64,000 bases of DNA from Prevotella sp. (GTDB lineage: Bacteria; Bacteroidota; Bacteroidia; Bacteroidales; Bacteroidaceae), in the NCBI GenBank assembly GCA_017462915.1, contig JAFTQG010000016.1, positions 19,202 through 83,201 on the forward strand, read 5' to 3'. The position numbers and the translations under genes are program-made. This document shows, piece by piece, positions 1-19,327 of this stretch. Under the pieces are notes generated by a model that worked only from the letters and a program-made list of their open reading frames with translations, was not told where the DNA came from and made no database searches. Within the stretch, counting starts at the first letter, position 1; every line of letters begins with the position of its first letter.

Positions 1-1205
1 AGCAGCAACCTATGGAGCTGCGCGACAATGAACTGTCGAGCGGTGCGCAGACCCTCGGCATCAACGCGCGCCCTGTGCCTCAGGTGCGCCTCGGGCTCAA
101 CGACTACTGGACCATTCCGATACTCGGCAGATGGTTTGCCTTCAAGGGACACTTCGCTTTCGGCATGATGACCGACGGCAACTGGCAGGAATCGTTTGCG
201 AAAGGCACTCCCAACAAGTGGAACAAGAACACGCGCTACCATCAGAAGGCCGGCTACCTGCGCATAGGAAAGGATGATGAGAGGCATCATCTTACATTCA
301 CCATAGGGCTGGAGATGGTCTCACAGTTCGGCGGCACTGTCTATAACTGGGCTGGAACGGACGAGAACGAGAACCATGAGGAGGCGGTGAAGCTGAAGAG
401 TAACCTGAAAAGCTACTGGAATGCCTTTACGGGCATGACGAGTGCCGACGCCGGCGAGGGCATTTACGAGAACGCCGAGGGCAATCTCCTCGGGTCGTGG
501 GTGATGAGGCTGGCATGGAACGACGACCGCATGACGGCAGGACTGTACATGGACCACTACTTCGAGGACCATTCGGGCATGTTCTTCCTGGACTATGACG
601 GCTACGGTTCGGGCGAAAACTGGAACGTGAAGGAGCGCAACCGCTACTTCCTTTACTCGCTGAAGGACTTCCTTCTCGGCTTCGACCTGAAGCTGAAGCG
701 CGTGAAGGCGGTCAACAGCTTTGTCGTGGAATATATGACTACAAAGTACCAGTCGGGACCTATATACCACGACCGCACACAGAACATCAGCGACCACATA
801 GCCGGTCGCGACAATTATTATAACCATTCGAGCCTGTCGGGATGGCAACATTGGGGACAGGTGATAGGCAATCCGCTGTATCTCTCGCCTCTCTACAACG
901 ACAACGGGTATATCGGCACGCAGTGCAACCGCTTCCGCGCCCTGCATCTCGGTGTCTCGGGCGACCCTGTGCCGGGACTGCACTACAGGGTGAAGGCCAG
1001 TTGGCAGAAAGGATGGGGCAAGTACGACGACCCGTACATGGAGCCTCGGGAGAACACGAGCCTGCTCGTCGAGGCATCATACAGGACCGTAGACGAGAGG
1101 TCTTTCCTCCGTCCTGTGACGCTGACATTAGGGCTCGGTGCAGATTTCGGCAAGCTCCGCGGAGACAACAAGGCCGTGCAGCTTACCGTGAAGTACCAGC
1201 TATAA
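1..1205 (+). CDS. Wzi-family capsule-assembly outer-membrane protein (5' truncated)
   Basis: The frame is open to the first base of the window (codons before the ATG at 12 read QQP), so the gene starts upstream and its signal peptide is missing. The 400 visible residues alternate short hydrophobic and aromatic strands with polar loops and end in the strand-like VKYQL with a terminal hydrophobic residue, as in outer-membrane beta-barrels. Overall character (many W, Y and G residues; LGLNDYWTIPILGRWFAFKG near the visible start) resembles the Wzi-like capsule-assembly family of Bacteroidota. Members are thought to help retain or assemble surface polysaccharide. A WecA-type transferase 0.7 kb downstream fits a polysaccharide role. 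The family call is by recognition, not alignment. Confidence 0.7.
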   Translation, partial: QQPMELRDNELSSGAQTLGINARPVPQVRLGLNDYWTIPILGRWFAFKGHFAFGMMTDGNWQESFAKGTPNKWNKNTRYHQKAGYLRIGKDDERHHLTFTIGLEMVSQFGGTVYNWAGTDENENHEEAVKLKSNLKSYWNAFTGMTSADAGEGIYENAEGNLLGSWVMRLAWNDDRMTAGLYMDHYFEDHSGMFFLDYDGYGSGENWNVKERNRYFLYSLKDFLLGFDLKLKRVKAVNSFVVEYMTTKYQSGPIYHDRTQNISDHIAGRDNYYNHSSLSGWQHWGQVIGNPLYLSPLYNDNGYIGTQCNRFRALHLGVSGDPVPGLHYRVKASWQKGWGKYDDPYMEPRENTSLLVEASYRTVDERSFLRPVTLTLGLGADFGKLRGDNKAVQLTVKYQL

Positions 1206-1209
1206 GCCA

Positions 1210-1268
1210 AACTCATAACTTACAACTCACGATTTACAACTCATAACTCATAACTTATAACTCACAAC
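1210..1268. repeat. Degenerate short tandem repeat (ACTCATAACT-like)
   Basis: The gap after the Wzi-like gene is filled with imperfect 8-10-bp words such as ACTCATAACT and ACTTACAACTC. It belongs to the set of degenerate intergenic tandem words found across the window. No promoter is obvious in it. Confidence 0.6.
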
Positions 1269-1374
1269 CACCCACCCCACACCCCTGCAGAGCTTCCTCC
1301 CGTCATCTCCATTGCAGAGACGTGCCACGCGACGGCATTGACGGACAGGCATAAAATAAGAAAAATATATCAGA

Positions 1375-1812
1375 ATGAAAGGAATAATATACGCGATAAT
1401 CCTCTCTGCCGTGCTTGCGGCGTGCTCTCTGCACAGCTCCGACAACGGCAAGCTCGACGGCTTCTGGTCGTTGAGACAGGTGGACACGCTCAGCAGCGGC
1501 ACCTCCGTGGACTATTCCGGCGAACGTGTCTTCTGGTCCTGGCAGGCAGGATTGATGCAGACCACCGATATGCACACGGGCATGATATTCGTGTACCGCT
1601 TCTCCCATGCAAACGACACGGTGGCAGTGACGGAACCTTACCTCTCCGACCGTACCGAAGGGGATGTCAAGGTGACGGAGGACGTGATGTTCTCCGACAT
1701 CAACCGCCACGGCATCAACAGTCTGCGCGACTCGTTTTTCGTGGAACGGCTGACGGGAGACAGGATGGTGCTGCGAGACAAGATGCTGCGTCTGCACTTC
1801 GAGAAATACTGA
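1375..1812 (+). CDS. Small lipoprotein, lipocalin-like
   Basis: This 145-residue protein begins with a lipoprotein signal: MKGIIYAIILSAVLAAC, with lipobox LAAC and Cys17 as the predicted lipidated residue. Mature sequence starts GKLDGFWSL and continues as short beta-strand-like segments ending in MVLRDKMLRLHFEKY, a pattern seen in small lipocalin-like Bacteroidota lipoproteins that begin with a 'G.W.L' motif. It lies 169 bp after the Wzi-like gene and 89 bp before the sugar-phosphate transferase on the same strand. It is probably an envelope lipoprotein; the ligand is unknown and the lipocalin comparison is inference. Confidence 0.65.
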   Translation: MKGIIYAIILSAVLAACSLHSSDNGKLDGFWSLRQVDTLSSGTSVDYSGERVFWSWQAGLMQTTDMHTGMIFVYRFSHANDTVAVTEPYLSDRTEGDVKVTEDVMFSDINRHGINSLRDSFFVERLTGDRMVLRDKMLRLHFEKY

Positions 1813-1901
1813 GCCACACATTAATATTATATATACACGCGCCATGATGTGTATATGTGGCTTGATGATAAACATATAAAACCTAAGTCTGAAGAAACTC
1901 T

Positions 1902-3026
1902 ATGAACGCAATATTAGTATTGGCTGTGACATGTGTCCTGACCCTCTGCATAGGAATGGTCCTCACTCCACGTGTCGTATCGGTGGCGAAGGAGCTGCAT
2001 CTCTATGACCTTCCTGACAGCAGGAAGGTGCACAAGATACCTATACCGAGGATGGGCGGAGTGATGTTCCTCCCCACTGTAGTCATCTCCATGACGGTCG
2101 TGCTGGTCGTGCTGCTGCGCATGGAGGTGCTGGGCAACAAGGTCTGGGAGGGCGCAACGATACAGCATTTCCTGGCATATATGGCAGGGGCGATGATGCT
2201 CTATGTCATAGGCCTTTATGATGATATACGCGGCGTAGGATATAAGGTGAAGTTCTGCGTGCAGATTCTTGCCGCCTCACTGCTCTGTGTCAGCGGCCTG
2301 TGGGTGTCAGACTTCTCCTATGTCTTCTTTATCCGTGAAGTGCCTTTCTGGATAGGTATGCCCTTTACGGTGCTCTTCGTGGTCTATGTCACCAATGCCA
2401 TGAATCTCATAGACGGCATAGATGGACTGGCATCGGGGCTTTCCATCGTGGCGATGGCGGTAATCGCCGGACTTTACATCATGTCGGGAAACTTTATCTG
2501 GGCACTGATACCTATGGCATATCTCGGTGTGCTTGTCTCTTTCTTCTACTATAACGTGTTCTGCAAGAACGACAAGACCTTCATGGGCGACGCCGGAAGC
2601 CTCACCCTCGGCTTCACACTCTCGTTTCTCGTGCTGCATTTCTGGCAGAAAGACCCGGTGTGGAACCATTACATCCACAACATTGGGATAATAGCGCTCA
2701 GCACACTGACAATCCCCTTGCTCGACGTCGTGCGCGTCTTCGCCTCACGTCTCCGTGACGGACGCAACCCGTTCCTGCCGGACAAGAACCATATACACCA
2801 TAAACTGCTCCGTGCAGGCCTTACGGGAAGGCAGACGATGGTGACTATCCTCCTCCTCTCCGTGATGTTCATCGCCATAAATTACCTTGTCTCCAATATC
2901 AGCCAGACACTGATGATTGTCGTCGACATAATCCTTTTTGTCCTCATGCACAACATCATCAATGTCTTCATATACAGGAGAGAAGGCCGGAACGGCAATG
3001 TCTGGGACAGGACTTTCTCCCTGTGA
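1902..3026 (+). CDS. Glycosyltransferase family 4 (WecA/TagO-type undecaprenyl-phosphate sugar-1-phosphate transferase)
   Basis: This 374-residue polytopic membrane protein is of the MraY/WecA superfamily, which moves a sugar-1-phosphate (usually GlcNAc-1-P) from its UDP form to undecaprenyl phosphate and so starts surface polysaccharide or teichoic-acid-type synthesis. Family motifs are in order: DLPDSRKVHKIPIPRMGG near the N-terminus, FMGDAGSLTLGF in the middle (Asp-rich Mg site), NLIDGIDGLASG before it, and the cytoplasmic NPFLPDKNHIHHKLL loop typical of WecA/TagO rather than MraY. About ten hydrophobic segments are visible. The neighbouring Wzi-like gene suggests a shared role in capsule or exopolysaccharide. 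The exact sugar cannot be read from sequence. Confidence 0.9.
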   Translation: MNAILVLAVTCVLTLCIGMVLTPRVVSVAKELHLYDLPDSRKVHKIPIPRMGGVMFLPTVVISMTVVLVVLLRMEVLGNKVWEGATIQHFLAYMAGAMMLYVIGLYDDIRGVGYKVKFCVQILAASLLCVSGLWVSDFSYVFFIREVPFWIGMPFTVLFVVYVTNAMNLIDGIDGLASGLSIVAMAVIAGLYIMSGNFIWALIPMAYLGVLVSFFYYNVFCKNDKTFMGDAGSLTLGFTLSFLVLHFWQKDPVWNHYIHNIGIIALSTLTIPLLDVVRVFASRLRDGRNPFLPDKNHIHHKLLRAGLTGRQTMVTILLLSVMFIAINYLVSNISQTLMIVVDIILFVLMHNIINVFIYRREGRNGNVWDRTFSL

Positions 3027-3033
3027 CATGGGG

Positions 3034-3078
3034 ACTTAACCCTAACCCTAACGATAACCTTAACCCTCACCTTAACGA
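3034..3078. repeat. CCTAAC/CCTTAAC short repeat
   Basis: About 45 bp of imperfect CCCTAAC and CCTTAAC words follow the transferase stop codon. They resemble telomere-type repeats by chance of unit; there is no sign of a chromosome end, since genes continue on both sides. Confidence 0.5.
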
Positions 3079-3110
3079 TACAAAAGCGAAAAAAGTTGTT
3101 TGGTCGTTAA

Positions 3111-3214
3111 GTTGTTTGAGCTTCGCTCGAAGTCCCTTCCGCTCGGCAGAGTTCAAGCCAGCTTGGCTCTGCTCTCGCTTAACCGGAACTTTAGTCGTTT
3201 AGAGTATATCTATT
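3111..3214 (+). repeat. 104-bp element, copy 1 (inverted partner at 13798-13901)
   Basis: This stretch, from GTTGTTTGAGCTTCGCTC to AGAGTATATCTATT, recurs in reverse complement at 13798-13901 with about three differences over 104 bp. Homology extends a little further: upstream both copies have TTGTTTGGTCGTT, and downstream both run into 9-bp ATAGCCG-type words present in different numbers. It contains the small palindrome GCCAGCTTGGC. No coding frame is convincing. The rest of the gap to 3386 holds only AT-rich sequence with no gene I can support. Confidence 0.85.
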
Positions 3215-3386
3215 CCGGCTATCTCCGTATAACCTACATCCGCATAACTTCACCACATACATCCCTAAACCGTTGGTGAGGTTGTGCGGATTTTATTGTT
3301 TTATGTGACGATTATGTCAAACAAATACCCGAAACAATCATTCAAGAGTGAACATACAGAATGTTTTGCAAAATATTTTTTGCATA

Positions 3387-3420
3387 TTTGTATTCAATTC
3401 ACTTTTTTTTCGTATCTTTG
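3387..3420 (+). promoter_or_regulatory. Bacteroidota-type promoter of the candidate structured RNA
   Basis: TATCTTTG at 3413-3420 matches the Bacteroidota -7 consensus TAnnTTTG. A TTTG at 3387-3390 may serve as the -33 element; the 22-nt spacer is slightly longer than the usual 19. Transcription would start near 3426. It is the only clear promoter I find upstream of the GTPase gene set. Confidence 0.7.
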
Positions 3421-3425
3421 CACAT

Positions 3426-3859
3426 GGATTGTCGTGGCCTTGAATAAAATAGCTTCCACCCGGAAGACATCAGGCAAGGCAACCCACGCCGTGCTTGATA
3501 TAGAAAAGTCGGAAGACTATCTATATAGAGCGGACAGGGGAGGGTATGATAATCCAGACATATTGAAGGCGTTTACAAGACGCATAGTTCGGCTGACACT
3601 CTGAAACGTGAGAAATTTCAATGTTACTGCCTCGGACTGTGCAACAGTAGATGTCCAGGGTGTGGTATATACTTCCTGTTGAAGCCTATGCAAGTATGGC
3701 TCTGTACCATTTGATATGTACAGTCCATGCTTTGGTAGCTTATACAGGGATGATTGTATTCATATCGGCGTGGGCTATACTGTTGTTCGTTCAGCAGTAT
3801 AGGGCAATTCTCACGGCCTCAGAGTGTGGATCGGACAACGGACGGTTCACGCTTTTTTT
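3426..3859 (+). ncRNA. Candidate large structured RNA or leader (about 430 nt)
   Basis: The region lies between a good promoter and a strong intrinsic terminator and is rich in local hairpins. CGTGG-CCTTG near 3430 pairs with CAAGG-CAAC-CCACG, enclosing CTTCC-ACCC-GGAAG. AGTC-GGAA-GACT is a tetraloop hairpin nested in ATATAG/CTATAT and CCG/CGG. GCGT/ACGC lies near 3570, a long stem is built on GTATGG-CTCTGTAC and GTACAG-TCCATGC, and CTATACTG pairs with CAGTATAG near 3775-3800. The open frames within it (3284-3604, 3651-3869) cross these stems and resemble no protein I know. I see no RNase P core, tmRNA ends, SRP motif or known riboswitch core. It could be a stand-alone RNA or a regulated leader for the gene set starting at 3943. 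Confidence 0.6.
3824..3859 (+). terminator. Intrinsic terminator of the candidate RNA
   Basis: GTGTGGATCG (3824-3833) pairs with CGGTTCACGC (3843-3852) over ten positions with some G-T pairs, followed directly by seven T residues (3853-3859). Confidence 0.8.
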
Positions 3860-3942
3860 ATGTCCATAAGTTAATATGTAAAAGTAGGACTAAAATACAG
3901 ATGAAATATCATATCCATTATTAATAACTAAAAAATATCCTT

Positions 3943-5016
3943 ATGAACACAAAAGTATTATGGTTCGCCCTCTTCGTTCTTGCCGCAGGCATCTCTTGCT
4001 GGGCGACATCATCATCACTGATCTTGCTGATACCTTCCTTGTTTTCTTCCAATCCTATAGTCAGGCTCATAATGGTATGGCTACTGGTCATTATGATTTA
4101 TGTACTTGCATCAATGTCCATGAAATGGGTTGTTGACTCCATCACCAATGACGGAACGCTGAATCATCCGAAAGCCATGTTGTGGGGAGGTATGGCGACT
4201 TTGGCTGTCACTTGGATCATCGTTTCGCTCCCGACAAATGCGCATACATTCTTCTATAATTTGAAAATAGGTGATGTAATAACGGAAGACCTCTCTACAA
4301 CAAGGTCTTATTGTCAGCAATTGGCGGACAGAAGTGTAGTAGACTCCGCGTACAACACATTGAGAACGGAAGTGCTACATGAATGGGAACTGTTTGAGAA
4401 TGAAGTGAAAGGTGGACACACGGGAAGCGGATTCGGGAGATATGCTGAAAAACATATTGCAAAAATCACCACTATGTTAGGTGAAGAATACCCCATTCCT
4501 ACACCACAGAATACCAATAAAGCAACAGACCTTGAAATCACAAATTTTGTGAACAATTATAAACAACGCTACCTTTTCCCACAATTGGAGAAAGTAAAGT
4601 CTGATAAATATAAAGTTGATCTCAAATGTGCCAAGGAAGCACAAGACGATGTAGAACGCATTGTGACCATGGAAGACTCCATCCATCAGCTGATTTATGC
4701 CAATGAGATATCAAATGAATCGTCCGAACCTGTCATTACACAAGCTGATGGCGTCTTGAAACTGTCGTATTCGCATATAAAGAAAAGTGCAAAATATGTT
4801 GACTTCAACGGAGACGACAAGAAACTCTATACAAAAGATAATATTGAGACACGGACTTCCCGTTTCCTGAACCCGTATTCTGTAATGTGGGATTTCTTCT
4901 CTGGAAAGATTCCCATTACCTTCTCTTTGTGGCTTTTGGTCTCAATAGTAATAGACTTGGCTGGTTTCTTCTTCTTTTACCAGTGGCAGAAAAAGAATAT
5001 ACCTATTTTTAACTAA
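3943..5016 (+). CDS. Four-TM membrane protein with large periplasmic domain, first gene of GTPase set
   Basis: I do not recognise this 357-residue protein. Hydrophobic segments lie at about residues 5-33, 39-61 and 78-98. A polar domain with helical character spans about 100-322, and a last segment covers about 325-347 (SLWLLVSIVIDLAGFFFF) before a short basic tail. With the N-terminus inside, the 220-residue central domain faces the periplasm. The gene is AT-rich compared with the genes before it. It follows the candidate RNA by 83 bp, and no TAnnTTTG box lies in that gap, so it may depend on read-through from 3413. The GTPase begins 21 bp downstream, pointing to co-transcription and a membrane-anchoring or sensing role (inference). 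Confidence 0.75.
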   Translation: MNTKVLWFALFVLAAGISCWATSSSLILLIPSLFSSNPIVRLIMVWLLVIMIYVLASMSMKWVVDSITNDGTLNHPKAMLWGGMATLAVTWIIVSLPTNAHTFFYNLKIGDVITEDLSTTRSYCQQLADRSVVDSAYNTLRTEVLHEWELFENEVKGGHTGSGFGRYAEKHIAKITTMLGEEYPIPTPQNTNKATDLEITNFVNNYKQRYLFPQLEKVKSDKYKVDLKCAKEAQDDVERIVTMEDSIHQLIYANEISNESSEPVITQADGVLKLSYSHIKKSAKYVDFNGDDKKLYTKDNIETRTSRFLNPYSVMWDFFSGKIPITFSLWLLVSIVIDLAGFFFFYQWQKKNIPIFN

Positions 5017-5037
5017 TACATAAAAAAACAATATAAT

Positions 5038-5964
5038 ATGGCAAACGAATTTATTGGTTTGGGCGGTAATACAGATAATGTTACCGTCAATGACGAGACA
5101 AGAACCGTTGAGATTCCCGTGACAGACAATGTAGAAGAACGTCAGCCTACACCTCCAAGCGAGATAGAAGTGCATGTGGAAGACCAGACAGCCCCTATAA
5201 TATTGCTGTTTGGAGCGACTACCAGCGGTAAGTCCATGACATTAGTGCGCCTTGCAAAGTATCTGAGGAAGAAAAACTACAGAATCACTGTAGATATGAA
5301 TTTCTGTACTAATGCGTGGGAATACAAGGAAAATGCAAGAAGATTCAACGATATGCTGGGGACTACAAGAGCCTTAAAAGGAACAGACCGTAATGATTTT
5401 CTATTCATAAAGATTGAGGACAGTAGAGGGACTACTGTCTGTCAGATACTGGAAGGAGCAGGAGAAGATTATTTCCCTTCTAAAAGCATTGAAGGATTTA
5501 ACCGTTCCAACATCCCTTTTCCTCCATATATGGCAACTGTATTTGGTGGAGACAACAAGAAGATATGGGCTTTTCTTACAGAACCTGACTGGGCTGTCCC
5601 ACATAATGACAAGTTAGAGTATGTGGAACGCATAAGATACTGCAAGCAACAACATACAGGAGGCAGGGATAAATTCATTATCCTTTACAATAAGGTTGAC
5701 AAGAGAGGTTTTGCAATAGACAAGACAAGCGTACATACAAAAAACGCCATTAAGGCCTGCAGTAATGAGTACAGCGGTCTGTTTGAGATTTTCAGGAATA
5801 ATTCTCCATTGCCATGGTCTCGAGACTACCTTTGTGAGTTTGTCCCATTCAGCACAGGAATATATGGTCTTCACGCACCAGGGGAGTTGGCACCATATAC
5901 TCCGAGTAATGATGTACATCCTGCTACATTGTGGGCTACTATATTAAAATGTATAAAAGGATAA
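5038..5964 (+). CDS. TRAFAC-like GTPase, cytosolic
   Basis: This 308-residue P-loop protein has no signal or membrane segment. After a disordered, acidic N-terminus (about 1-52) come a beta-strand and Walker A GATTSGKS (residues 59-66). A G3-like EGAGEDYF (139-146) has Glu where the usual DxxG has Asp and carries the AGE seen in some bacterial DO-type GTPases. A clear G4 motif NKVD (218-221) preceded by FIILY favours GTP, and FVPFSTG (269-275) could be G5. Family-level similarity to TRAFAC GTPases of predicted conflict systems is my reading and is untested. It sits 1 bp before the next gene, so the products are surely made together. It is probably the energy or switch component of the set. 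Confidence 0.8.
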   Translation: MANEFIGLGGNTDNVTVNDETRTVEIPVTDNVEERQPTPPSEIEVHVEDQTAPIILLFGATTSGKSMTLVRLAKYLRKKNYRITVDMNFCTNAWEYKENARRFNDMLGTTRALKGTDRNDFLFIKIEDSRGTTVCQILEGAGEDYFPSKSIEGFNRSNIPFPPYMATVFGGDNKKIWAFLTEPDWAVPHNDKLEYVERIRYCKQQHTGGRDKFIILYNKVDKRGFAIDKTSVHTKNAIKACSNEYSGLFEIFRNNSPLPWSRDYLCEFVPFSTGIYGLHAPGELAPYTPSNDVHPATLWATILKCIKG

Positions 5965-5965
5965 T

Positions 5966-7345
5966 ATGGAGATTAACTTTAAAATTTACATACATGGACG
6001 TCCTCAGGGGCAGGATGTCTGGTGTACAGGTAGTTATTCGTCGGACAGATTCTATATCGAGCCGTTCTTGGATTCCAAGATTGGAGCAGATGCAGATGCT
6101 GTCATGGTTCTTGACACATGGGAAGGCAATACATACTATACTTATGTTAGACGCAAGAATGTTTTTGAAAAGGAGCGTGCGCAAGGATATTTTGCCATTA
6201 CCTTGCGGATAAGCAATGGATATTGCCACAATGTAAGCTACTTGTATAGTTTGTTGGAACTGGTATACAACGAGAAATGTCTGAACCATATCTTGAAAAA
6301 AGAGAATGGCGCGGAACGGTTTATGATAGGACGGTTCTCGGAAATAGATAATTATCTGAGAGAGATAGAATCCTTGATAAATGTAAACTTCTCGCAAATA
6401 CAGGATTCCTATGTAAAGCCTATTGACAATAGAAACTCAACAACAGAACAGCCTCTTCAAAGATATTCCTTTGAAGAGGTGGACAGTCCTGCTTTCTTTG
6501 AAGCTGCCAGACATGCAAAGATTGTCATTTCAAAAGACTATGGCACGAAAGCTTCTATCCTGGAGAGACAAATAGCAGACCTGCGTAAGGAGAAGGATGG
6601 GCTTGAGCGAAAACTTTCCAAAGCAAGTGAAACGGTAGAAGCCACCTATAAAGATATATTAGACAGAAAAGACGATGAAATAAGGGCATTGACAAAGCAG
6701 CGTGATGAAACTGAGAGAAAATACAATCAGTTGAAAGAAAACAGAGCAAATGTCAGTGGAAATAGAGCTTTACGTGATAATATCTTGGAAATAAAAACTC
6801 CTTTAGATAATCTTGCTCGCCTTATGGCAAACTTGTTGCCAGACAATGACGGAAAAATATGTGAGTCTGATGCACCACATGTCAAAAACAATACTTGGAC
6901 TTGGCTGCCAAGAATCCGGTTGCAGTGGATTAACACCGTTATGTTGCTTCTTCTTTTATGTATTTCCGTTACTCATAGTTGCAGAGACAATGCGAAACAC
7001 GATGAGCATCAGACCATTCAAATTTCAAGTAAACCTTTAGGTGAGCCGGATAGTGTGAAATATGCACCTTCTGATGATGCAGAGGATGGAGATGATGACA
7101 ATGACAATGATTATAAAATAGACATTGACGGCTATATTGGTTCAGGAGATTTGAAATTAAAAAAAGAATATAAATTGAGTTTAATTGGACCAGAACCCAT
7201 AGAGCAATCACAAGTAATCTGGAGTATCTGTGGAGACAATATAAATATGACAAACGGTTCATTAACCATAACTCAGGCGGGAGATATTAAAATAACTGCA
7301 AGTTACAATGATATATCCACGACAAGAGAACTAACAGCCAAATAA
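5966..7345 (+). CDS. Single-pass coiled-coil membrane protein with Ig-like C-terminus (paralogue of 7857-8984)
   Basis: The family is unrecognised. This 459-residue protein has an N-terminal globular domain (about 1-112) beginning FKIYIHGRPQG and containing YYTYVRRK and YFAITLRISNGYCHN. It then has a linker, a strong coiled coil (about 196-262), one membrane segment (about 320-338, WINTVMLLLLLCISV), an acidic stretch (DDAEDGDDDNDND), and a beta-rich Ig-like C-terminal domain (about 385-459). The likely topology is domain and coil in the cytosol, Ig-like domain in the periplasm. The N-terminal domain and layout recur in the protein at 7857-8984. The start codon at 5966 is 1 bp after the GTPase stop, suggesting translational coupling and direct partnership. 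Confidence 0.75.
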   Translation: MEINFKIYIHGRPQGQDVWCTGSYSSDRFYIEPFLDSKIGADADAVMVLDTWEGNTYYTYVRRKNVFEKERAQGYFAITLRISNGYCHNVSYLYSLLELVYNEKCLNHILKKENGAERFMIGRFSEIDNYLREIESLINVNFSQIQDSYVKPIDNRNSTTEQPLQRYSFEEVDSPAFFEAARHAKIVISKDYGTKASILERQIADLRKEKDGLERKLSKASETVEATYKDILDRKDDEIRALTKQRDETERKYNQLKENRANVSGNRALRDNILEIKTPLDNLARLMANLLPDNDGKICESDAPHVKNNTWTWLPRIRLQWINTVMLLLLLCISVTHSCRDNAKHDEHQTIQISSKPLGEPDSVKYAPSDDAEDGDDDNDNDYKIDIDGYIGSGDLKLKKEYKLSLIGPEPIEQSQVIWSICGDNINMTNGSLTITQAGDIKITASYNDISTTRELTAK

Positions 7346-7352
7346 TCAGTAT

Positions 7353-7853
7353 ATGAAGAGAATATTATTCATAATCTTATCGGTCATTGCTTTTTCGTCA
7401 TGTGACAGTAGTAAGAAGCCACCTGTCAACTTGTCAAGAACAGTTGCCAAGAATGAAATTTCTGTACCGTATTCAGAAATCAATGGAGTAAAGACAATAC
7501 CCGTAAAGCTTAATGGTGTATCAATGGATATGATATATGACCCAGGTTGTTCTGGCGTGCAGATATCTGCATTAGAACTCCAGACTTTATGCAAAAACGG
7601 ACGATTCTCTGAAGACGATATCATAGGAATCGGTACGGCAAGAATTGCTGACGGCAGTATCGTGGAGAATGGTGTCATCAATATTAGAGAAATAGAAATC
7701 GGAGGCAAAGATGGAATCGTACTTTCCAACATTGAAGCTTCTGTCTCACTCAATCAAGAAGCACCTCTCCTGTTAGGAAACGGTGTCCTTGACAAGGTAG
7801 CATCTGTTGAAGTTGATAATGTGAAGAAAACCATTAAATTCAAACGTAATTAG
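7353..7853 (+). CDS. Retropepsin-like aspartyl protease lipoprotein
   Basis: This 166-residue protein has a lipoprotein-type signal (MKRILFIILSVIAFSSC, Cys17 predicted lipidated) and a single retropepsin-like domain. Strand VKTIPVKLNGVSMDMIYDPGCSGVQIS holds the active-site region with Asp63, where the usual D-T/S-G reads D-P-G. A flap-like IADGSIVENGVINI and a LLLGNGVLDK turn typical of clan AA bacterial proteases follow. One Asp per chain implies that a homodimer would be needed for activity. It lies in the periplasm, where the Ig-like domains of the flanking paralogues are also predicted, so these could be substrates (inference). It is separated by 7 bp from the gene before and 3 bp from the gene after. 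Confidence 0.75.
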   Translation: MKRILFIILSVIAFSSCDSSKKPPVNLSRTVAKNEISVPYSEINGVKTIPVKLNGVSMDMIYDPGCSGVQISALELQTLCKNGRFSEDDIIGIGTARIADGSIVENGVINIREIEIGGKDGIVLSNIEASVSLNQEAPLLLGNGVLDKVASVEVDNVKKTIKFKRN

Positions 7854-7856
7854 TAT

Positions 7857-8984
7857 ATGAATATATACTTGTTTGGTGAATTCTGTAGCGGATATACACA
7901 ATATCCCAGCAATGATTCCTGTAAAGTTCTGGAAAGGCTGCATGCCCTGAGCAAAGCTGATACACAGATTGTGATCCATAGAGATGACAATCTGATGTAT
8001 TACGCATATATCAGGAAAATATCCGAGAATAGGTATTGTGGTATATGCATTACAGAAGCAGGTCATTATTATTCCATGCTATCCTCTTTGTTTCCTGTAT
8101 TTGAGAAATGTATAGAACAGATGGCATACAAGGGAAACATCATCCATTTTGACTCGTCAGGAGAGCTGACAACAGATACAGGAGAGCTATATACGAGGCA
8201 TGAAGATGTCATACTTTCCATTTCATCGATAAAGTCTAGTCTGCAAGATATCGTTGAAAAAGCGGAACCATTACCTCCCGCCGATTATTCCATTGATAAA
8301 GATTCTGTTAACTATTGTAATGTCAATGACAATATGGATGATATCATATCTTCATCCTATACATTTGGTTATACAGTCATATTGAAAGAAGAAGACTATA
8401 ACACTGTCCAATTCAACGATTATCGGGCTGTTTTAAGTAGGGTTAATACAGAGAATGCGTGGCTTAAGAGGATAAACAAGGAGATTAAGGATGAGAATAC
8501 CAAGAAGTGCCGTCAGGAAGAGTACAACAGCTTTGGTATTGTAATGGCCGTTATATTTTTTATAATCAGTATCGGAGCATTGGTATGTAATCGTATTACA
8601 CAAAGGAAGCTGGATAATGCGAAGGTTACAATAGCTGAAAGAGACAATATAATAAGTGACAGAAACGAGACAATAGCACAACAGGACGCACAACTGAACG
8701 ATATATTGCAAAAGTGCTATAACCCATGTGTGGTGACATCATGTTCCAACACTAAATACTCTTTTCGTTTTGATTATGATGCTATAGAAGAAAGAAACGT
8801 AACAGTAACCCTCAAGGCCATAAACGAGAACAGTTCAGAAGTTTTAACCAACACACATGATGTGACTTTTGCCAAAGGCGGAGGGTCTATGTCTCTTTAC
8901 TTCTCAGATCCCCTGAACGGTTCTGATTATTATTATATCGTCTTGATTTGTAACGGAAAAGTTTTAGCTGGTAGACGCTGGTGA
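7857..8984 (+). CDS. Single-pass coiled-coil membrane protein, paralogue of 5966-7345
   Basis: The family is unrecognised. The 375 residues repeat the architecture of the product at 5966-7345: an N-terminal domain (about 1-105) starting IYLFGEFCSGYTQ with YYAYIRKI and YCGICITEAGHYYS, aligning by eye with YYTYVRRK and YFAITLRISNGYCHN there. A linker follows, then one membrane segment (about 225-245, GIVMAVIFFIISIGALVC), a short coiled coil on the far side (about 247-287), and a beta-sandwich-like C-terminus (about 296-375) ending AGRRW. Here the coil lies after rather than before the membrane segment. Two divergent copies in one set suggest a heteromeric complex. The start is 3 bp after the protease stop. 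Confidence 0.75.
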   Translation: MNIYLFGEFCSGYTQYPSNDSCKVLERLHALSKADTQIVIHRDDNLMYYAYIRKISENRYCGICITEAGHYYSMLSSLFPVFEKCIEQMAYKGNIIHFDSSGELTTDTGELYTRHEDVILSISSIKSSLQDIVEKAEPLPPADYSIDKDSVNYCNVNDNMDDIISSSYTFGYTVILKEEDYNTVQFNDYRAVLSRVNTENAWLKRINKEIKDENTKKCRQEEYNSFGIVMAVIFFIISIGALVCNRITQRKLDNAKVTIAERDNIISDRNETIAQQDAQLNDILQKCYNPCVVTSCSNTKYSFRFDYDAIEERNVTVTLKAINENSSEVLTNTHDVTFAKGGGSMSLYFSDPLNGSDYYYIVLICNGKVLAGRRW

Positions 8985-9070
8985 TGTCAATATCCTGAAA
9001 AAGAGTAGATAACGTAATAACCATATTAATATTTAGAAGTTGCGCACGACACGTATCAGTGTACATACAA

Positions 9071-9565
9071 ATGAAAGCAAAAGTGTTTTTTACAGTCATC
9101 GCGGTTGTAGCTGTCGTTTTAGGGTTATCAAGTTGTGATGGAGACAAAACGACAATTACACGGAATGATTTGAGTTTCACCGCAGTCAATCTGATTGATG
9201 GGGAAAAGAAACTCTCAGCAACAACAGGTGCGGGCTCTATCGTTACTGTAAATTGGACGGTTGATATTTCCGTGAATGGTGAAACAACAACATTTAGCGG
9301 TACAAAGAGAAGCAATGAATTGCCCGTCCGTCCTGGTGATGAAATAGAACTTACTTTCCAGCCTTCTTGCCCCGAAGAGACAGAAGTTTTCTTTACATTA
9401 CCAGACGGGACTATGCTTAAGGCTACAGCTTCCACACCATCTGTAAAATGGACTATACCGTCCAATTTTACATCAGGGATGGAGATAAAGGGTGAAAGTC
9501 GCTATGAAACAGAGGACTATTTTTATATTACATCAGGAAAAATAATCCTCATAGCACTTGAGTAA
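9071..9565 (+). CDS. Small lipoprotein of the GTPase set
   Basis: The chosen start at 9071 gives a lipoprotein signal (MKAKVFFTVIAVVAVVLGLSSC; lipobox LSSC, Cys22). An ATG at 9059 would only add MYIQ. The mature part (about 142 residues) is acidic and beta-rich, with GSIVTVNWTVDISVNGETTT and RPGDEIELTFQPSC, so it may be another Ig-like fold. It follows the paralogue gene by 86 bp on the same strand, has similar AT-rich composition and shares the envelope theme. I assign it to the set by context; the function is unknown. Confidence 0.65.
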   Translation: MKAKVFFTVIAVVAVVLGLSSCDGDKTTITRNDLSFTAVNLIDGEKKLSATTGAGSIVTVNWTVDISVNGETTTFSGTKRSNELPVRPGDEIELTFQPSCPEETEVFFTLPDGTMLKATASTPSVKWTIPSNFTSGMEIKGESRYETEDYFYITSGKIILIALE

Positions 9566-9590
9566 CTTGCCATTCATGGCAGAAAATAGA

Positions 9591-9641
9591 AGTAGGTCAA
9601 CAAAATCAAGTGATACTATACATTAATTTTGTTGACTTACT
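9591..9641. repeat. Palindromic repeat AGTARGTCAACAAAAT
   Basis: A 16-bp arm (9591-9606) pairs with 9626-9641 with one G-T pair; no T run follows either arm. A related, more degenerate palindrome lies at 19328-19412. The rest of the 269-bp gap between 9565 and 9835 shows no gene I can support and no clear promoter. Confidence 0.65.
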
Positions 9642-9834
9642 ATTGAAGAAACATATATTCTCCAAAAGTGATAGATTCAATGCGGGAGCACACTCTAATA
9701 TATTAGAGGTTTGAGGTTAGCGGCACAATGGCGCAACCATCCAACCGAAAAAACAGTGAGGGTATGGTTACAAACCGTCCTGTCATGACATAAACATCTG
9801 ACAGAATACTATCACGCATAATATAAAAAACAAC

Positions 9835-10275
9835 ATGTCGCTTATGAAAAAAGAAAATGCAGAAGCTCTCGTTAAGCATCTTATGGAAAAGCTCCGTATT
9901 CAGTCTCTGAATCTTGATGACATCATGTGTTACTACACCTCCAAGAGTCTTATGGCACCGATGCTCCTTGCTATTAAGAGATCCCCAATCATTGGATCTC
10001 CACCGAAGGAAGAGAAAGACACGGATGACGACATGCCAGAGTGTGCCTGTAAAGTCTATTTCCAATGGGAGGATGTAATAGGGAGCATCATGGAACATCC
10101 TGACAAAGTGCATTATCTGGAACAGACATGTCCTGATTGCGGAGGGAAGATGTTGCAGATAGATTTCTGGTCGCCTTACTTTATGTGGCATGCGCACTGC
10201 GGACGTTCGGGCCCTATGGTGCTCTGCCCTGAGTGTCCGAGGCAAATAGCATTCTCTCTGACTATTATGAACTGA
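9835..10275 (+). CDS. Zinc-ribbon protein, function unknown
   Basis: The family is unrecognised. The 146-residue protein has a helical N-terminus (about 5-50), a charged linker, and a C-terminal cysteine-rich module: C70-x-C72, C99-P-D-C102, C122, C131-P-E-C134. The two CPxC knuckles are typical of a zinc ribbon. There is no signal or membrane segment, so it should be cytosolic. ATG codons at 9835 and 9844 are both possible starts. It lies 269 bp after the lipoprotein gene and 38 bp before the Sel1-type gene, so it may form a two-gene unit with the latter. Confidence 0.6.
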   Translation: MSLMKKENAEALVKHLMEKLRIQSLNLDDIMCYYTSKSLMAPMLLAIKRSPIIGSPPKEEKDTDDDMPECACKVYFQWEDVIGSIMEHPDKVHYLEQTCPDCGGKMLQIDFWSPYFMWHAHCGRSGPMVLCPECPRQIAFSLTIMN

Positions 10276-10313
10276 GTGAACAGACTTATATAAAACTTTC
10301 AAAAAAAACAAAC

Positions 10314-11141
10314 ATGAAGAAACGTATCATGGCCATTATGGCTGTAATGTTTGTCGGTTGCTCCATCTATTATGTTAGCAATGCAATGGCGACAGCAGGA
10401 ATAAAGCTGGCAGAGGAGACTTCACTAGGGGAAACGGATGTGAAGGCTCTCGCAGAGAAGGCGAGATGTGGCGACGGACAGGCATGTTTGCGGCTTGCCG
10501 ACTGTTACAGGAAAGGGATAGGCGTGAAGAAGAGCCTTATGGGGACTGTCGTAATGTCCCTTCGGGCAAGTCTGTATGGTGCGACAAAGAGCGGCGATGA
10601 ATACTTCGCCAGTCTTCCCGAGGACGATGAGTACAGGATATGCTACAACCTTCTGGAGAAATATGGCACGAGTCAGGAGGATTGCAGCTCCGCTATCAAG
10701 AGGCTTGAGGCGAGCGAAGACCCTGATGTCATAGCCACTTGTGGAGTTTCTCTGGCAAGGCTCGGAGACGCCGAAAAGGGCATGGCTCTCGTAGAGAAGG
10801 CCGAGAAGCGCGGCAGTACCCTCGCCATAATGTTGAAGTATGCCGACAAGGACTCCCTGACAGACAGCGACAAGTCTTTGCTGGAGGAGAAAGCCGAAGC
10901 CTTGCCTTCACTGTACAATCTTCTGGGACAGGCATATCTCACTGCAGACAAAGACGGGAAAACGGACTACAAGAAAGCGGCCTCCTACTATATGAAGGCG
11001 GAAGAGCAAGGAATGCTTGACATGATCGGTGCACGATGGTTGCTCAACTGTCATGAGAAGGGAATGGATATACAGTTGACAGAGGAAGATGTCAAGCGTC
11101 TGAAAGCATTCGTGAGCAAAAGCAAGGCGTCTGATGATTGA
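10314..11141 (+). CDS. Sel1-like repeat protein with signal anchor
   Basis: I choose the ATG at 10314, which yields a membrane anchor or signal (MKKRIMAIMAVMFVGCSIYY); an upstream in-frame ATG at 10233 would overlap the zinc-ribbon gene and hide it. The 275-residue product has Sel1/TPR-type helical repeats: EKARCGDGQACLRLADCYRKG (about 44-64), GVSLARLGDAEKGMALVEKA and LGQAYLTADKDGKTDYKKAA, with A-x-x-Y-Y-M-K-A-E-E-Q-G near the end. Sel1 repeats mediate protein contacts. It is likely exported and envelope-bound. It is richer in GC than the genes at 3.9-9.6 kb, so it may not be part of the same acquired unit. Confidence 0.7.
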   Translation: MKKRIMAIMAVMFVGCSIYYVSNAMATAGIKLAEETSLGETDVKALAEKARCGDGQACLRLADCYRKGIGVKKSLMGTVVMSLRASLYGATKSGDEYFASLPEDDEYRICYNLLEKYGTSQEDCSSAIKRLEASEDPDVIATCGVSLARLGDAEKGMALVEKAEKRGSTLAIMLKYADKDSLTDSDKSLLEEKAEALPSLYNLLGQAYLTADKDGKTDYKKAASYYMKAEEQGMLDMIGARWLLNCHEKGMDIQLTEEDVKRLKAFVSKSKASDD

Positions 11142-11203
11142 TGGTTTCAGGACGTAGGATGTACGGCTTGTGTTTCTTGCTTGCTTTTTATACCAGAAAA
11201 CCT

Positions 11204-11262
11204 CACAACCGCGAAACTGTAAAACCGCCTAACCGAAGAACCGCAAGACCATCCAACCGCAT
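11204..11262. repeat. Degenerate 8-bp AACCG-type tandem words
   Basis: The gap after the Sel1 gene contains imperfect words such as AACCGCCT and AACCGCAT, the same family as ATAACCGT repeats near 18.0 and 63.5 kb. Confidence 0.5.
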
Positions 11263-11316
11263 ATAACGCAATCACGCCGAAAACCCTTTACGAGGTTTTC
11301 GGCGTGATTGCGTTAT
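11263..11316. repeat. Perfect 23-bp inverted repeat between convergent genes
   Basis: The arm at 11263-11285 is the exact reverse complement of 11294-11316, with an 8-nt loop CTTTACGA. It lies between the Sel1 gene (+) and the oxidoreductase gene (-), so it would form a strong 3' hairpin in both transcripts. Neither side has a T run, so it is not a classical intrinsic terminator. Confidence 0.8.
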
Positions 11317-11329
11317 GTCATTACTGCTG

Positions 11330-13678
11330 TTATTCGCTGAGAGCGGCATCCATATTGGCAGCCGCGCGTCGTCCGTCGCCCATCGCGAGGATTACCGTCG
11401 CGCCGCCGCGGACGATGTCGCCGCCGGCATAAAGTCCTCTATGAGACGACTCCATGTGGTCATTGACCACGATGGTGTTCTTGCGTCCGAGCTCCAGTCC
11501 TGCCACAGACTTCGGCACAAGAGGGTTAGGAGAGACACCTACAGCCACGACAACCTGGTCTACATCTATCGTCACGCGCTTGCCTGTGTCTACAGGAGAG
11601 CGGCGTCCCGAGGCGTCAGGCTCTCCGAGCTCCATCACGGCGAGCACCGCCTGCTTTACGGCACCATTCTCGTCGCCTATGTATTCTACAGGATTATGCA
11701 GCGTGAGGAAGTTTATGCCCTCCTCCTTGGCATGTTTCACCTCTTCCAGACGCGCCGGCATCTCTGCCTCGGAACGGCGGTAGACGAGCGTCACCTCTGC
11801 GCCGAGACGCTTTGCTGTGCGGCAGGAGTCCATGGCTGTGTTTCCTCCGCCGACAACGAGGACGGACTTTGCCGGGTTGAGCGGCGTGTCCATTGCCGGG
11901 TTTGCGGCGTCCATGAGGTTGACACGGGTGAGGTATTCGTTGGACGACATGATGTTGAGAAGATTCTCTCCGCCGATGTTCATGAAGTTAGGCAGACCGG
12001 CACCCGAGCCTACAAAGATGCCTTTGAAGCCCTGCTCCTCAAGTTCCTCGACAGAGATTGTCTTGCCGACAACGGTATCTGTGTAGAACTTCACGCCGAG
12101 TTTGCGGAGATTGTCTATCTCGAACTCCACGATGCTGTTAGGAAGACGGAACTCCGGGATGCCGTATTTCAGCACGCCGCCTATCTCGTGGAGAGCCTCG
12201 AAGACATGTACCTCATAGCCTTTCTTCACCATATCGCCGGCGAAAGACAGTCCTGACGGGCCTGAACCGACAACGGCGACCTTTATGCCTTTGGCCGGAG
12301 CACACTCTGGGAGTGCCGCCTTGCCGCTCTCGCGCTCATAGTCGGCGGCGAAACGCTCAAGGTATCCGATAGCCACGGCAGGCTCGTTCATCTTCAGATG
12401 TATACATTTCGACTCGCACTGCTTCTCCTGCGGGCAGACACGTCCGCAGACAGCAGGGAGTGCAGAGGTGGATTTCAGCACCTTTGCGGCGGCAAGGAAC
12501 TCGCCGCGCTCTATGTTCTTGACAAACGAAGGGATATTGATGCTTACCGGACAGCCCTCCACACATTGTGGCTTAGGGCAGTCAAGACAGCGCTTTGCCT
12601 CTACGAGAGCCTGCTCGGCGGTAAGACCCTTGTTGACCTCCTCCGTGCGTGTTGTGGCGCGGTAGACAGGATCCAGTTCTGGCATCCTGACACGCTCTAT
12701 GGCAGTGCGCTCCTTTGGCTTCATGGCCTTGCGCAGTTCCTCGCGCCAAGGGGCGTTGCGGTCGGTCAGTTCCGACAGGGGAGCGTCAGCAGGGTCTGTG
12801 GCACCATCAGCCGCGGCGACAGCCTTACATTCTGTCTCCGTGTCCTCATTGCCAGGCAGATGCTCCTCGAAATGTTCCATCTCGTCGTGCTCCACACGCT
12901 TGAATGTGCCCATGCGCTTGAGCATCTCGTCCCAGTCGACGAGGGCGGCGTCAAACTCAGGGCCGTCGATACACACGAACTTTGTCTTCCCTCCTATGGA
13001 AAGGCGGCATGCACCGCACATTCCGGTGCCGTCGACCATGATGGTATTGAGCGATACCTCTGTAGGGATATTGTTCTTAAGGGTAGTCATCGAGGCGAAT
13101 TTCATCATTATCGCAGGGCCGATGGCTATCGCCTTGTCTATATGCTCCTGTGCGATGAACTTCTCCATGCCCACGGTAACGACACCCTTCTCGCCCTTTG
13201 AGCCGTCGTCGGTCATGACGATCACCTCGTCAGAATACTTCCTTATCTCGTCTTCGAGTATGACAAGGTCTGCTGTCCTGCCAGCAATGACGGAGAGGAC
13301 ACGGTTTCCAGCCGCCTTCAGAGCCTTGACGATAGGGAGCAGCGGTGCTGTTCCCACGCCTCCTGAGGCGCAGAGCACGGTACCGTAGTTCTCGATGCGT
13401 GTGGCGTTGCCCAGCGGTCCTACGATGTCGAGGATAGTGTCGCCGACATTGAGGCGGCAGAGCTTTGTGCTCGACAGTCCCACTTCCTGCACGACAAGCG
13501 TTATCGTGCCCTTGACGGTATCGGCGTCAGCGATTGTCAGCGGCATACGCTCGCCTTTCTTGTCTACACGGACGATGACAAAATGCCCTGCCTTCCGCGA
13601 CTTTGCTATCAGCGGAGCTTCAACCTCAAAGAGGAAAACCTTCTCCGAGAATTGTTCTTTTCTAATGATCTTGTTCAT
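11330..13678 (-). CDS. Fused Nfn-type NADH/NADPH-ferredoxin oxidoreductase (DHOD-B NAD-binding subunit plus GltD-like subunit)
   Basis: This 782-residue protein joins two proteins that are usually separate. Residues 1-280 are a ferredoxin-NADP reductase-like unit with FAD/NAD-binding sequence (RMPLTIADAD) and the [2Fe-2S] cysteines of DGTGMCGACRLSIGG...FVCIDGPEFD. Residues 300-782 are a GltD-like unit with cysteine clusters CLDCPKPQCVEGCP and CGRVCPQEKQCESKC for [4Fe-4S] clusters. They also hold an FAD motif VAVVGSGPSGLSFAGD and an NADPH motif VLVVGGGNTAMDSCRTAKR. The family balances NADH, NADPH and ferredoxin pools, or serves as glutamate synthase small chain; the fusion suggests the Nfn role. 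It has no operon partner and lies inside the 104-bp inverted repeats although its composition is host-like. Confidence 0.88.
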   Translation of the reverse strand: MNKIIRKEQFSEKVFLFEVEAPLIAKSRKAGHFVIVRVDKKGERMPLTIADADTVKGTITLVVQEVGLSSTKLCRLNVGDTILDIVGPLGNATRIENYGTVLCASGGVGTAPLLPIVKALKAAGNRVLSVIAGRTADLVILEDEIRKYSDEVIVMTDDGSKGEKGVVTVGMEKFIAQEHIDKAIAIGPAIMMKFASMTTLKNNIPTEVSLNTIMVDGTGMCGACRLSIGGKTKFVCIDGPEFDAALVDWDEMLKRMGTFKRVEHDEMEHFEEHLPGNEDTETECKAVAAADGATDPADAPLSELTDRNAPWREELRKAMKPKERTAIERVRMPELDPVYRATTRTEEVNKGLTAEQALVEAKRCLDCPKPQCVEGCPVSINIPSFVKNIERGEFLAAAKVLKSTSALPAVCGRVCPQEKQCESKCIHLKMNEPAVAIGYLERFAADYERESGKAALPECAPAKGIKVAVVGSGPSGLSFAGDMVKKGYEVHVFEALHEIGGVLKYGIPEFRLPNSIVEFEIDNLRKLGVKFYTDTVVGKTISVEELEEQGFKGIFVGSGAGLPNFMNIGGENLLNIMSSNEYLTRVNLMDAANPAMDTPLNPAKSVLVVGGGNTAMDSCRTAKRLGAEVTLVYRRSEAEMPARLEEVKHAKEEGINFLTLHNPVEYIGDENGAVKQAVLAVMELGEPDASGRRSPVDTGKRVTIDVDQVVVAVGVSPNPLVPKSVAGLELGRKNTIVVNDHMESSHRGLYAGGDIVRGGATVILAMGDGRRAAANMDAALSE

Positions 13679-13734
13679 ATTCTGTGGTTTTGTTTGTTTA
13701 CTTTCCTTGATTCAGACGGTTACGGTCGGTTATG

Positions 13735-13797
13735 CGGTTTTGCGGTTGGGCGGTTATACGGTTGGGCGGAGATAGCCGAAATAGCCGTGATAGCCGA
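13735..13797. repeat. 9-bp ATAGCCGAA-type and ATACGGTT words
   Basis: Degenerate tandem words (ATAGCCGAA, ATAGCCGTG) run into the inverted element. The same words follow copy 1 at 3214 in reverse complement but in fewer copies. Confidence 0.6.
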
Positions 13798-13901
13798 AAT
13801 AGATATACTCTAAACGACCAAAGTTCCGGTTAAGCGAGAGCAGAGCCAAGCTGGCTTGAACTCAGCCGAGCGGAAGGAACTTCGAGCGAAGCTCAAACAA
13901 C
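13798..13901 (-). repeat. 104-bp element, copy 2 (inverted relative to 3111-3214)
   Basis: Reverse complement of the element at 3111-3214 with about three substitutions. Together the two copies bracket 10.6 kb containing the candidate RNA, the GTPase gene set and the fused oxidoreductase. It lies downstream of the GT9 gene, which reads toward it. Confidence 0.85.
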
Positions 13902-13981
13902 TGAACGACCAAACAACTAAACAACCAAACGACTAAACAACCAAACAACTAAATAACCAAACGACTAAACGACCAAACAAC
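13902..13981. repeat. 8-bp AACTAAAC/AACCAAAC tandem words
   Basis: About ten imperfect 8-bp units (AACGACCA, AACTAAAC, AACCAAAC) fill the space between the inverted element and the end of the GT9 gene. The same family occurs at 25540-25610, 31605-31742 and 63530-63560. Confidence 0.65.
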
Positions 13982-13989
13982 TGTATGTA

Positions 13990-14997
13990 TCACAGATACT
14001 TCTCCACCCTCTGCACGATATCCTCCGGCCTTATGCCGTTGAGGCAGGCATAGTCTCCGCGCATACACGGCTTGTTTCCGTATATGCTGCATGGGCGGCA
14101 CGGCAGCTGCACCTGTACGATGTCCTCCTCTTTCTGTCCCCATCCCATGAATCCGGCATAAGGATGAGTCGCGCCCCATACACTTATCACGGGTGTGCCG
14201 ACAAGAGAGGCGAGGTGCATGTTGCCGGAATCCATGGTAATCATGCACTTCATGCGGCGCATGAGTGCAAGTTCCTCGCCCATGTCCTTGCAGAAATCTC
14301 CGGCGTAGAAGATATTTTCGCCCATGCTGCACCATGTGCCGAACTGTGCCTTGTCCCTCTTTCCGCCGCCGAAGAGGTATATGCTGAGTCCCGGATGCCT
14401 CTGTCTCAAGAGACGCATGACGGTCTCCGTCTTGTCTACAGGGTATATCTTCCCGTCGTGGGCGGCAAAGGGAGCCACGCCTATCGCCATGCCACGGACA
14501 TCCACGGGCGGCTCTCCCGGGCGGAGCGGAGCCTCGTCGGGCATGGTGAAGGTGAAGCCGAGGCGTGAGAACACCGCCTCATATTTCCCGAAAGCGGTAG
14601 TCTGCTGCCGCAGTATCTTGTTCTCCTGCCGTGTTATTTCCTTCCGTGCGGCGCGGTTCTTGTCTATGCAGGATACAGGAATGCCCGCCATACGGAACCG
14701 GAGGCGGGCATATTTCGTGCGCAGGACATCATGCAGGTCGGCCACCATGTCCGGATTCAGGGCGCGGAGGTCATGGTATACATGCTCCAGTCCGCCCATG
14801 CCCTTGTAGCGTTTGTCCTTCAGGTCCATGCCTACAAACTCCACATTAGGTGCAAGTCCTTCATAGAACGCCTTTGCAAACGGTCTGCTGACCATTATTA
14901 TATGTATGTCAGGGCGTGCCACGGCAAGCGCCTTGACGACAGGGACTGTCATGGCTACATCGCCTATGGCAGAGAATCTTATACAGAGTATTCGCAT
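13990..14997 (-). CDS. Glycosyltransferase family 9 (ADP-heptose:LPS heptosyltransferase-like)
   Basis: This 335-residue GT9 protein starts MRILCIRFSAIGDVAMTVPV, the characteristic first strand and loop of heptosyltransferases, and carries the C-terminal donor-site region ITMDSGNMHLASLVGTPVISVWGATHPYAGFMG. The family adds heptose or related sugars to lipopolysaccharide core on the cytosolic face of the inner membrane. A late cysteine-rich stretch (LPCRPCSIYGNKPCMRGDYACLNGI) is common in Bacteroidota GT9 members. It follows the DUF4254 gene by 73 bp on the same strand, and a promoter upstream of that gene should drive both. Confidence 0.88.
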   Translation of the reverse strand: MRILCIRFSAIGDVAMTVPVVKALAVARPDIHIIMVSRPFAKAFYEGLAPNVEFVGMDLKDKRYKGMGGLEHVYHDLRALNPDMVADLHDVLRTKYARLRFRMAGIPVSCIDKNRAARKEITRQENKILRQQTTAFGKYEAVFSRLGFTFTMPDEAPLRPGEPPVDVRGMAIGVAPFAAHDGKIYPVDKTETVMRLLRQRHPGLSIYLFGGGKRDKAQFGTWCSMGENIFYAGDFCKDMGEELALMRRMKCMITMDSGNMHLASLVGTPVISVWGATHPYAGFMGWGQKEEDIVQVQLPCRPCSIYGNKPCMRGDYACLNGIRPEDIVQRVEKYL

Positions 14998-15070
14998 GAT
15001 ATGCTTACTGCACCGTGCCTTTCTTCCTGTGCGGCGTGTCTGCCGTATGCGGGAAGGAGGCTTCGGAGCG

Positions 15071-15682: not shown

Positions 15683-15704
15683 TCGGTTTGATTTATGTTT
15701 TCTG

Positions 15705-19313: not shown

Positions 19314-19327
19314 ACATAATATAGACA

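Follow-up and report, generated by a model that had tools for sequence, protein, structure and literature searches.

What does a compact, AT-rich gene set do in a Prevotella genome when most of its products fall outside known protein families? The set occupies positions 3943 to 9565 of a 64,000-nucleotide stretch of contig JAFTQG010000016.1 (Prevotella sp., assembly GCA_017462915.1), here called the window, and its genes are termed, in order, G1, G2 (a predicted GTPase), N1, G4, N2 and G6. An earlier note on this DNA had suggested that the first five belong together and might link a cytosolic switch to periplasmic proteolysis. We find that G1, G2, N1, G4 and N2 are a recurrent operon whose grouping is not due to chance, and that they make up a real, unnamed, envelope-spanning GTPase module, probably mobile, whose function we infer; the gene set and its order, the motifs, the co-occurrence of the parts and their correlated divergence are established observations. 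In the window, the core proteins G1, G2, N1 and N2 reach no Pfam or NCBIfam family at cut-off, yet they travel together across Bacteroidales, and only the fourth protein, G4, passes, marginally, with gag-asp_proteas and Asp_protease_2.

A recurrent operon in Bacteroidales

A scan of genome contigs found 87 GTPase relatives, of which 80 were kept, and the locus census comprised 86 loci after those with an identical GTPase had been removed. In 80 of the 86 loci the gene immediately before the GTPase is G1, and in 83 the one immediately after it encodes a protein with the N-terminal domain of N1 and N2 (N-domain); a second N-domain protein is present in 69 and G4 in 60, some of the missing partners being due to contig ends. 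The median gap is 23 base pairs (bp) between G1 and G2 and 4 bp between G2 and N1. Among 301 genomes of the same family (Bacteroidaceae), 24 carry the GTPase, and the N-domain profile was found in 23, all of them within these 24 (Fisher, 1e-33). The contig of the single GTPase-positive genome without the N-domain (genome G068) stops inside the GTPase gene, and no N-domain was seen in the GTPase-negative genomes of this sample. In 51 complete loci, mirror-tree correlations reached r 0.74 for G1-G2 and 0.79 for G2-N1, the top of 200 permutations for the latter being only 0.17.

The operon recurs as a unit in varied surroundings, and this unit has no match to an already named system in the libraries searched (Pfam, NCBIfam, PADLOC and PHROGs); PHROGs and PADLOC gave weak or partial matches only for the window proteins. 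No publication describing the module was found in the literature searched, mostly outside subscription journals. Within these searches, the core corresponds to no family or system already known.

Individual loci depart from the common layout. One (L124) encodes a 619-residue GTPase-like open reading frame (ORF) with neither G1 nor N-domain neighbors, another (L071:10831-17808) has three N-domain proteins in its core and a gene resembling, by eye, a subtilisin-type peptidase, and 3 of the 86 have a further GTPase ORF close to it (L039:10454-11263, L045:6577-7353 and L109).

All six ORFs of the window locus were confirmed on the forward strand (Table 1). The intergenic gaps from G1 to G6 are 21, 1, 7, 3 and 74 bp, and G+C content in 2-kb windows across 3001-10000 is 0.37 to 0.41, in agreement with the previous description of tightly packed, co-directional, AT-rich genes.

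Table 1. Features of the operon and its upstream region (window coordinates)
Feature	Position	Strand	Product or description	Basis
G1	3943-5016	+	Predicted inner-membrane protein	ORF call; hydropathy; directly before GTPase in 80/86 loci
G2	5038-5964	+	TRAFAC-like GTPase with P-loop GATTSGKS, switch LEGAGE and NKVD; no transmembrane segment by hydropathy	Motifs; alignment
N1	5966-7345	+	N-domain, coiled coil, one predicted transmembrane helix near residue 317	Profile; hydropathy
G4	7353-7853	+	Retropepsin-like (clan AA) lipoprotein, facultative	Pfam gag-asp_proteas 1.9e-6; alignment; 60/86 loci
N2	7857-8984	+	N-domain, one predicted transmembrane helix near residue 226	Profile; hydropathy
G6	9059-9565	+	Lipoprotein-like; encoded in the variable slot behind the core and not part of what is conserved	
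Promoter match	3387-3420	+	About 520 bp before G1	Pattern search
Inferred leader RNA	3421-3860	+	Terminator-like hairpin and T-run at the end	Profile covers 3553-3858

A predicted nucleotide switch inside, a protease-type lipoprotein probably outside

Of the arrangement proposed earlier, a nucleotide switch inside, membrane-crossing coiled-coil proteins and a protease-type lipoprotein are supported. That G2 is a TRAFAC-like GTPase is borne out by its relatives, which share a P-loop, an LE-x-P-G-E-like switch and [NH]KxD. The loose P-loop pattern GxxxxGK[ST] occurs in 83 of 86 GTPases, the other 3 being ORFs split or cut by contig ends; the loose switch motif [ED]x[PASC]G[ED] is found in 86 of 86, and NKxD in 77, while 7 of the remaining 9 have HKxD. 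An alignment of 70 relatives shows 14 invariant positions, including E139, G142 and E143, and the Asp of DxxG is replaced by Glu in all 70. The P-loop, the DxxG-like switch II and NKxD place the G2 family in the TRAFAC class. PDB sequence searches returned similarity at the level of the P-loop or of helical stretches only.

G1 had been described as a four-pass protein. By crude hydropathy this stands for most relatives, with approximately three N-terminal transmembrane (TM) helices, a long loop and one C-terminal TM helix, but the window copy gives five overlapping peaks. The loop, of about 220 residues, would be periplasmic if the N terminus is cytosolic. DUF4407 is a weak Pfam lead for 5 of 73 G1 members (best E 6e-4) and was seen again in 3 of 75 N1 proteins.

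Both N1 and N2 of the window show one TM helix by the same crude measure, and the N1-seeded profile recovers N2 proteins, confirming that the two single-pass proteins have an N-terminal domain in common. Iterated profiles gathered 196 ORFs from the N1 seed and 200 from the N2 seed, compared here as totals. The TM helix starts at median residue 321 in N1 (seen in 78 of 83 proteins) and 228 in N2 (61 of 69), and the tails behind it have median lengths of 132 and 168 residues, respectively. These C-terminal tails are strongly diverged and the N-domains remain recognizable; the N1 tail and the C-terminal part of N2 are predicted to be periplasmic. FGE-sulfatase, Big_2 and DUF805 were each found in one N2 member of 55. 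To the eye, the pattern of the N-domain is reminiscent of longin or adaptin-type domains, a lead at this stage: a weak C9orf72-like match appeared in 4 of 100 N-domain members (best E 0.017), the best E of the profile against PDB was 0.61 with no convincing PDB sequence, and no roadblock/longin Pfam family was reached by N-domain members among the matches listed.

The retropepsin-like assignment of G4 held as well, with a Pfam gag-asp_proteas score of 28.8 bits against a cut-off of 28.2. All 28 aligned G4 proteins keep the lipobox Cys and the D-x-G-x-S Asp, and D[TSP]G[CAS]S is present in 58 of 60 copies; the window G4 reads DPG, the Asp being retained. The D-[TS]-G motif and a second, hydrophobic-LLG motif of the G4 family place it among the retropepsin-like proteases of clan AA.

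Patchy distribution and a variable downstream slot

Most carriers are labeled Bacteroidales or groups within Bacteroidales, many of them host-associated, and include Segatella copri, Parabacteroides distasonis, Hallella mizrahii, Xylanibacter rodentium and Bacteroides luti. Five loci with Firmicutes labels (L060, L089, L093, L096 and L130) sit on contigs of 3 to 5 kb and probably reflect mis-binning. In a phylum sample, matches were found in 5 of 395 genomes, namely, the genome of the window and four others with partial matches of 33 to 123 positions. Within the genus, the GTPase occurs in 2 of the 22 genomes listed, and the window copy is 58% identical over its best segment to a copy in a Paludibacteraceae metagenome-assembled genome, compared to 32% to that of a same-genus genome (genome G108).

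The low G+C content of the locus contrasts with 0.52 to 0.60 in its flanks (1-3000 and 10001-20000); low values are not unique within the 64-kb window (e.g., 0.395 at 33001-35000). The flanking gene at 11330-13678 is full-length at 73 to 82% identity in 48 of 59 other genomes of the genus, the rest having lower, partial or paralogue-level matches. For the gene on the other flank (1902-3026), the best full-length matches in the genus have only ~40% identity, so that this side may itself be variable. Patchy distribution, low G+C and the conserved 11330-13678 flank support horizontal transfer, suggesting that the module has moved between Bacteroidales. A tblastn search of 50,697 phage and 72,556 plasmid records with the window GTPase gave no match, and a viral contig scan with a single protein gave 8 pattern matches, none confirmed. 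Similar OPT-type transporter genes, recognized by eye, lie near the module in the window (15797-17779) and in another genome (L085:14212-16209), either a shared neighborhood or a coincidence.

The content of the slot after the core varies, and exported proteins are enriched there. In 46 of 83 loci, one or more co-directional genes follow within 200 bp, and of 107 slot genes in total 80 are singletons. By a crude rule for export, the first post-core gene encodes an exported protein in 26 of 46 cases, compared to 180 of 705 flanking genes (Fisher, 2e-5). Families among 89 downstream proteins include TPR (3), BACON (3) and Endonuclease_NS (2), and the products include lipoprotein-like proteins and, by eye, barrel-like C termini. 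The sixth gene, counted with the set in the earlier note, has to be removed from it, its profile having retrieved only itself among the loci. Two further candidate members, a zinc protein (9835-10275) and a Sel1-type protein (10233-11141), were likewise rejected; the three profiles found 1, 1 and 3 ORFs, respectively.

A putative leader RNA shared with other genes

The pattern TTTG-N-TANNTTTG, which we take to be a Bacteroidales-type promoter consensus, has 7 matches in the window against 0.74 expected, and ~440 nucleotides separate the match upstream of G1 from a T-run at 3860. Leader profiles identified class A in 33 of 80 loci and a diverged class B in 8. Among the 71 loci with at least 500 nucleotides upstream, the leader was found in 37 and not found in 34, two of which (L027 and L063) have a copy elsewhere in the locus; in three loci (L029, L039 and L074) it ends 600 to 874 nucleotides before G1.

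The consensus fold of 28 leader copies has two helices, with 95.5% of cells paired, compared to 90.8% after shuffling and at most 53.3% with slid partners. Two-sided changes affect 36 cells (13.3 when shuffled; 0 of 500 as high), but the number of pairs showing such changes (9) and that of further pair types (28) were each reached by 48 of 500 shuffles, covariation being tested on the same alignment that yielded the structure. For a competing hairpin, 86.0% of cells are paired against 84.3% when shuffled, and its covariation is weak. As read from the sequence, GGCGTGGG can pair with the upstream CCCACGCC or with the terminator arm, an alternative that suggests an attenuator.

This leader is ruled out as a system-specific part, since a model of its 3' domain matches 229 of 301 Bacteroidaceae genomes and 11 places in the genome of the window (E <1e-9), the operon copy included. 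Five of the ten other copies in that genome, with one downstream gene considered for each, precede four BspA-type LRR_5 genes and one gene of no family. Among 30 copies across genomes, the first gene is exported in 13 by the crude rule, and no close ORF follows in 9. One copy (L208) stands before genes for a small Cys-rich product and for a protein that, by eye, resembles radical-SAM proteins. NusG or KOW domains are encoded in 3 of 5 genes after leader copies in other genomes, the 5 having been picked by eye from 30 loci; the GTPase operon has no upxY. We read the element as a putative antitermination leader by analogy, because UpxY proteins prevent termination in 5' leaders of Bacteroides capsule operons, as described in the accessible part of PMC7819879.

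Rfam gave eight weak matches, far below gathering scores, for window positions 2800-4200 (E up to 10), and at the gathering cut-off one tRNA only for three other loci (L085, L090 and L046). No earlier description of such a leader was found in the literature searched. The element is an independent lead in its own right. Since the operon in about half of the loci shares this regulatory element with other genes, some of them BspA-type, its physiological role becomes testable.

Proposed mechanism and competing explanations

How might these parts work together? Our preferred proposal, held tentatively and at somewhat less than even confidence, is a membrane-docked GTPase that would switch two transmembrane receptors controlling periplasmic proteolysis and exported partners. 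G1 and the N-domains of N1 and N2 would serve as docking sites for the GTPase, and GTP binding or hydrolysis would alter the dimer or coiled-coil state of N1/N2 across the membrane. Their periplasmic parts might then recruit or release G4, where present, as well as further exported partners from the variable slot. In this way the cell would control how envelope or surface proteins are processed or assembled. Where the leader is present, terminator read-through would probably gate expression. If true, the coupling of a GTP switch to a periplasmic protease would represent a new mode of envelope control. An extended version, in which the module is a bacterial counterpart of GTPase-longin adaptor machinery, its membrane-docked TRAFAC GTPase working through two longin-like transmembrane receptors and exerting inside-out control of periplasmic proteolysis and surface display within an antitermination-leader regulon, is speculative and quite improbable.

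Several points weigh against the proposal of a GTPase-switched receptor pair. Topology of the membrane proteins is based on hydropathy, correlated divergence is equally expected under plain co-inheritance, and mirror-tree correlations are lower for N2 (r 0.46 to 0.57). G4 is not seen in 26 of 86 loci, some of them cut by contig ends; proteolysis cannot, then, be the sole output, the protease loses its place at the heart of the system, and proteolysis looks like a facultative branch of the module, although the signal-triggered proteolysis raised by the earlier note is possible. Exported cargo is not obligatory either, because in 37 of 83 loci nothing co-directional follows the core closely, and the slot genes clearly include housekeeping ones.

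The strongest competitor, in our view rather unlikely, is an antiphage or other GTPase-centered conflict system, in which a constant switch module would serve variable membrane or periplasmic effectors. Patchy distribution, signs of transfer and a constant core with variable neighbors fit it, as does the xxGE signature, also seen in DO-GTPases; so do the FGE-sulfatase, Big_2 and DUF805 matches of single N2 members, FGS effectors being named in the accessible part of PMC7159879. However, PADLOC matched 36 families among the 89 downstream proteins, and the 25 listed have one protein each; for the core proteins it gave only partial matches, with E no better than 1e-4, that covered a P-loop or coiled-coil part. 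The window GTPase has no match in the phage and plasmid records searched, GAP1 was found neither among matches to eight window proteins nor in the first 25 families listed for N1/N2 relatives, GASH was not among matches to window proteins, and the neighbors listed appear mostly housekeeping-like. The defense role entertained earlier thus gains no positive support.

Alternatively, the GTPase might drive sorting or assembly of surface lipoproteins or outer-membrane proteins as part of an envelope biogenesis or trafficking machine, which we consider unlikely. The lipoprotein-like slot products, the BACON and TPR proteins and the barrel-like C termini speak for it, together with a leader RNA common to the operon and BspA-type genes, but no Pfam or NCBIfam transport family was reached at cut-off by window proteins, and patchy presence argues against a general machine. 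A periplasm-to-cytosol relay, in which G1 and the periplasmic parts of N1/N2 would respond to a ligand by setting the state of the GTPase, accords with diverged tails on recognizable N-domains and is improbable, as no evident cytosolic output protein is found among the core genes.

Comparison with known systems

The closest concept is that of the DO-GTPase/GAP1 conflict systems, which, as far as the accessible part of PMC7159879 goes, appear to have in common with the module a TRAFAC-type GTPase, an xxGE switch region, a constant downstream-encoded partner, frequent TM parts, variable components and mobility. Unlike them, the module has a four-TM protein, two N-domain proteins and a retropepsin-like lipoprotein, and a second GTPase occurs in few loci (the three noted above), compared to two paralogous GTPases in 38% of DO-GTPase systems (same source, same part). 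A profile of 25 G2 relatives aligned by hhalign to a DO-GTPase profile of three sequences (DO-GTPase2 matches and a neighbor) with probability 91 and E 1e-6 over 118 columns, from the P-loop past xxGE. Membership of the DO-GTPases was rejected: DO-GTPase2 (PF19993) is not among the window matches (E up to 1) or those of its genome (E 0.001). A DO-GTPase2-type protein of ~606 residues is encoded in another Bacteroidaceae genome (L137:511-2331), after an ORF with a TM-like stretch.

With LapD/LapG, as the accessible parts of PMC3032545 and PMC3032553 present it, the module would share a cytosolic nucleotide signal crossing an inner-membrane receptor to a periplasmic protease, the signal being cyclic di-GMP there and a GTPase here. 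We take this likeness as a functional analogy. MglA/MglB, a GTPase with a small partner domain (roadblock or longin), offers a further one. LapG-type proteases are cysteine proteases, in contrast to the retropepsin-like G4, and the signal recognition particle receptor pair, a GTPase with a longin-type partner, is likewise analogous to the module.

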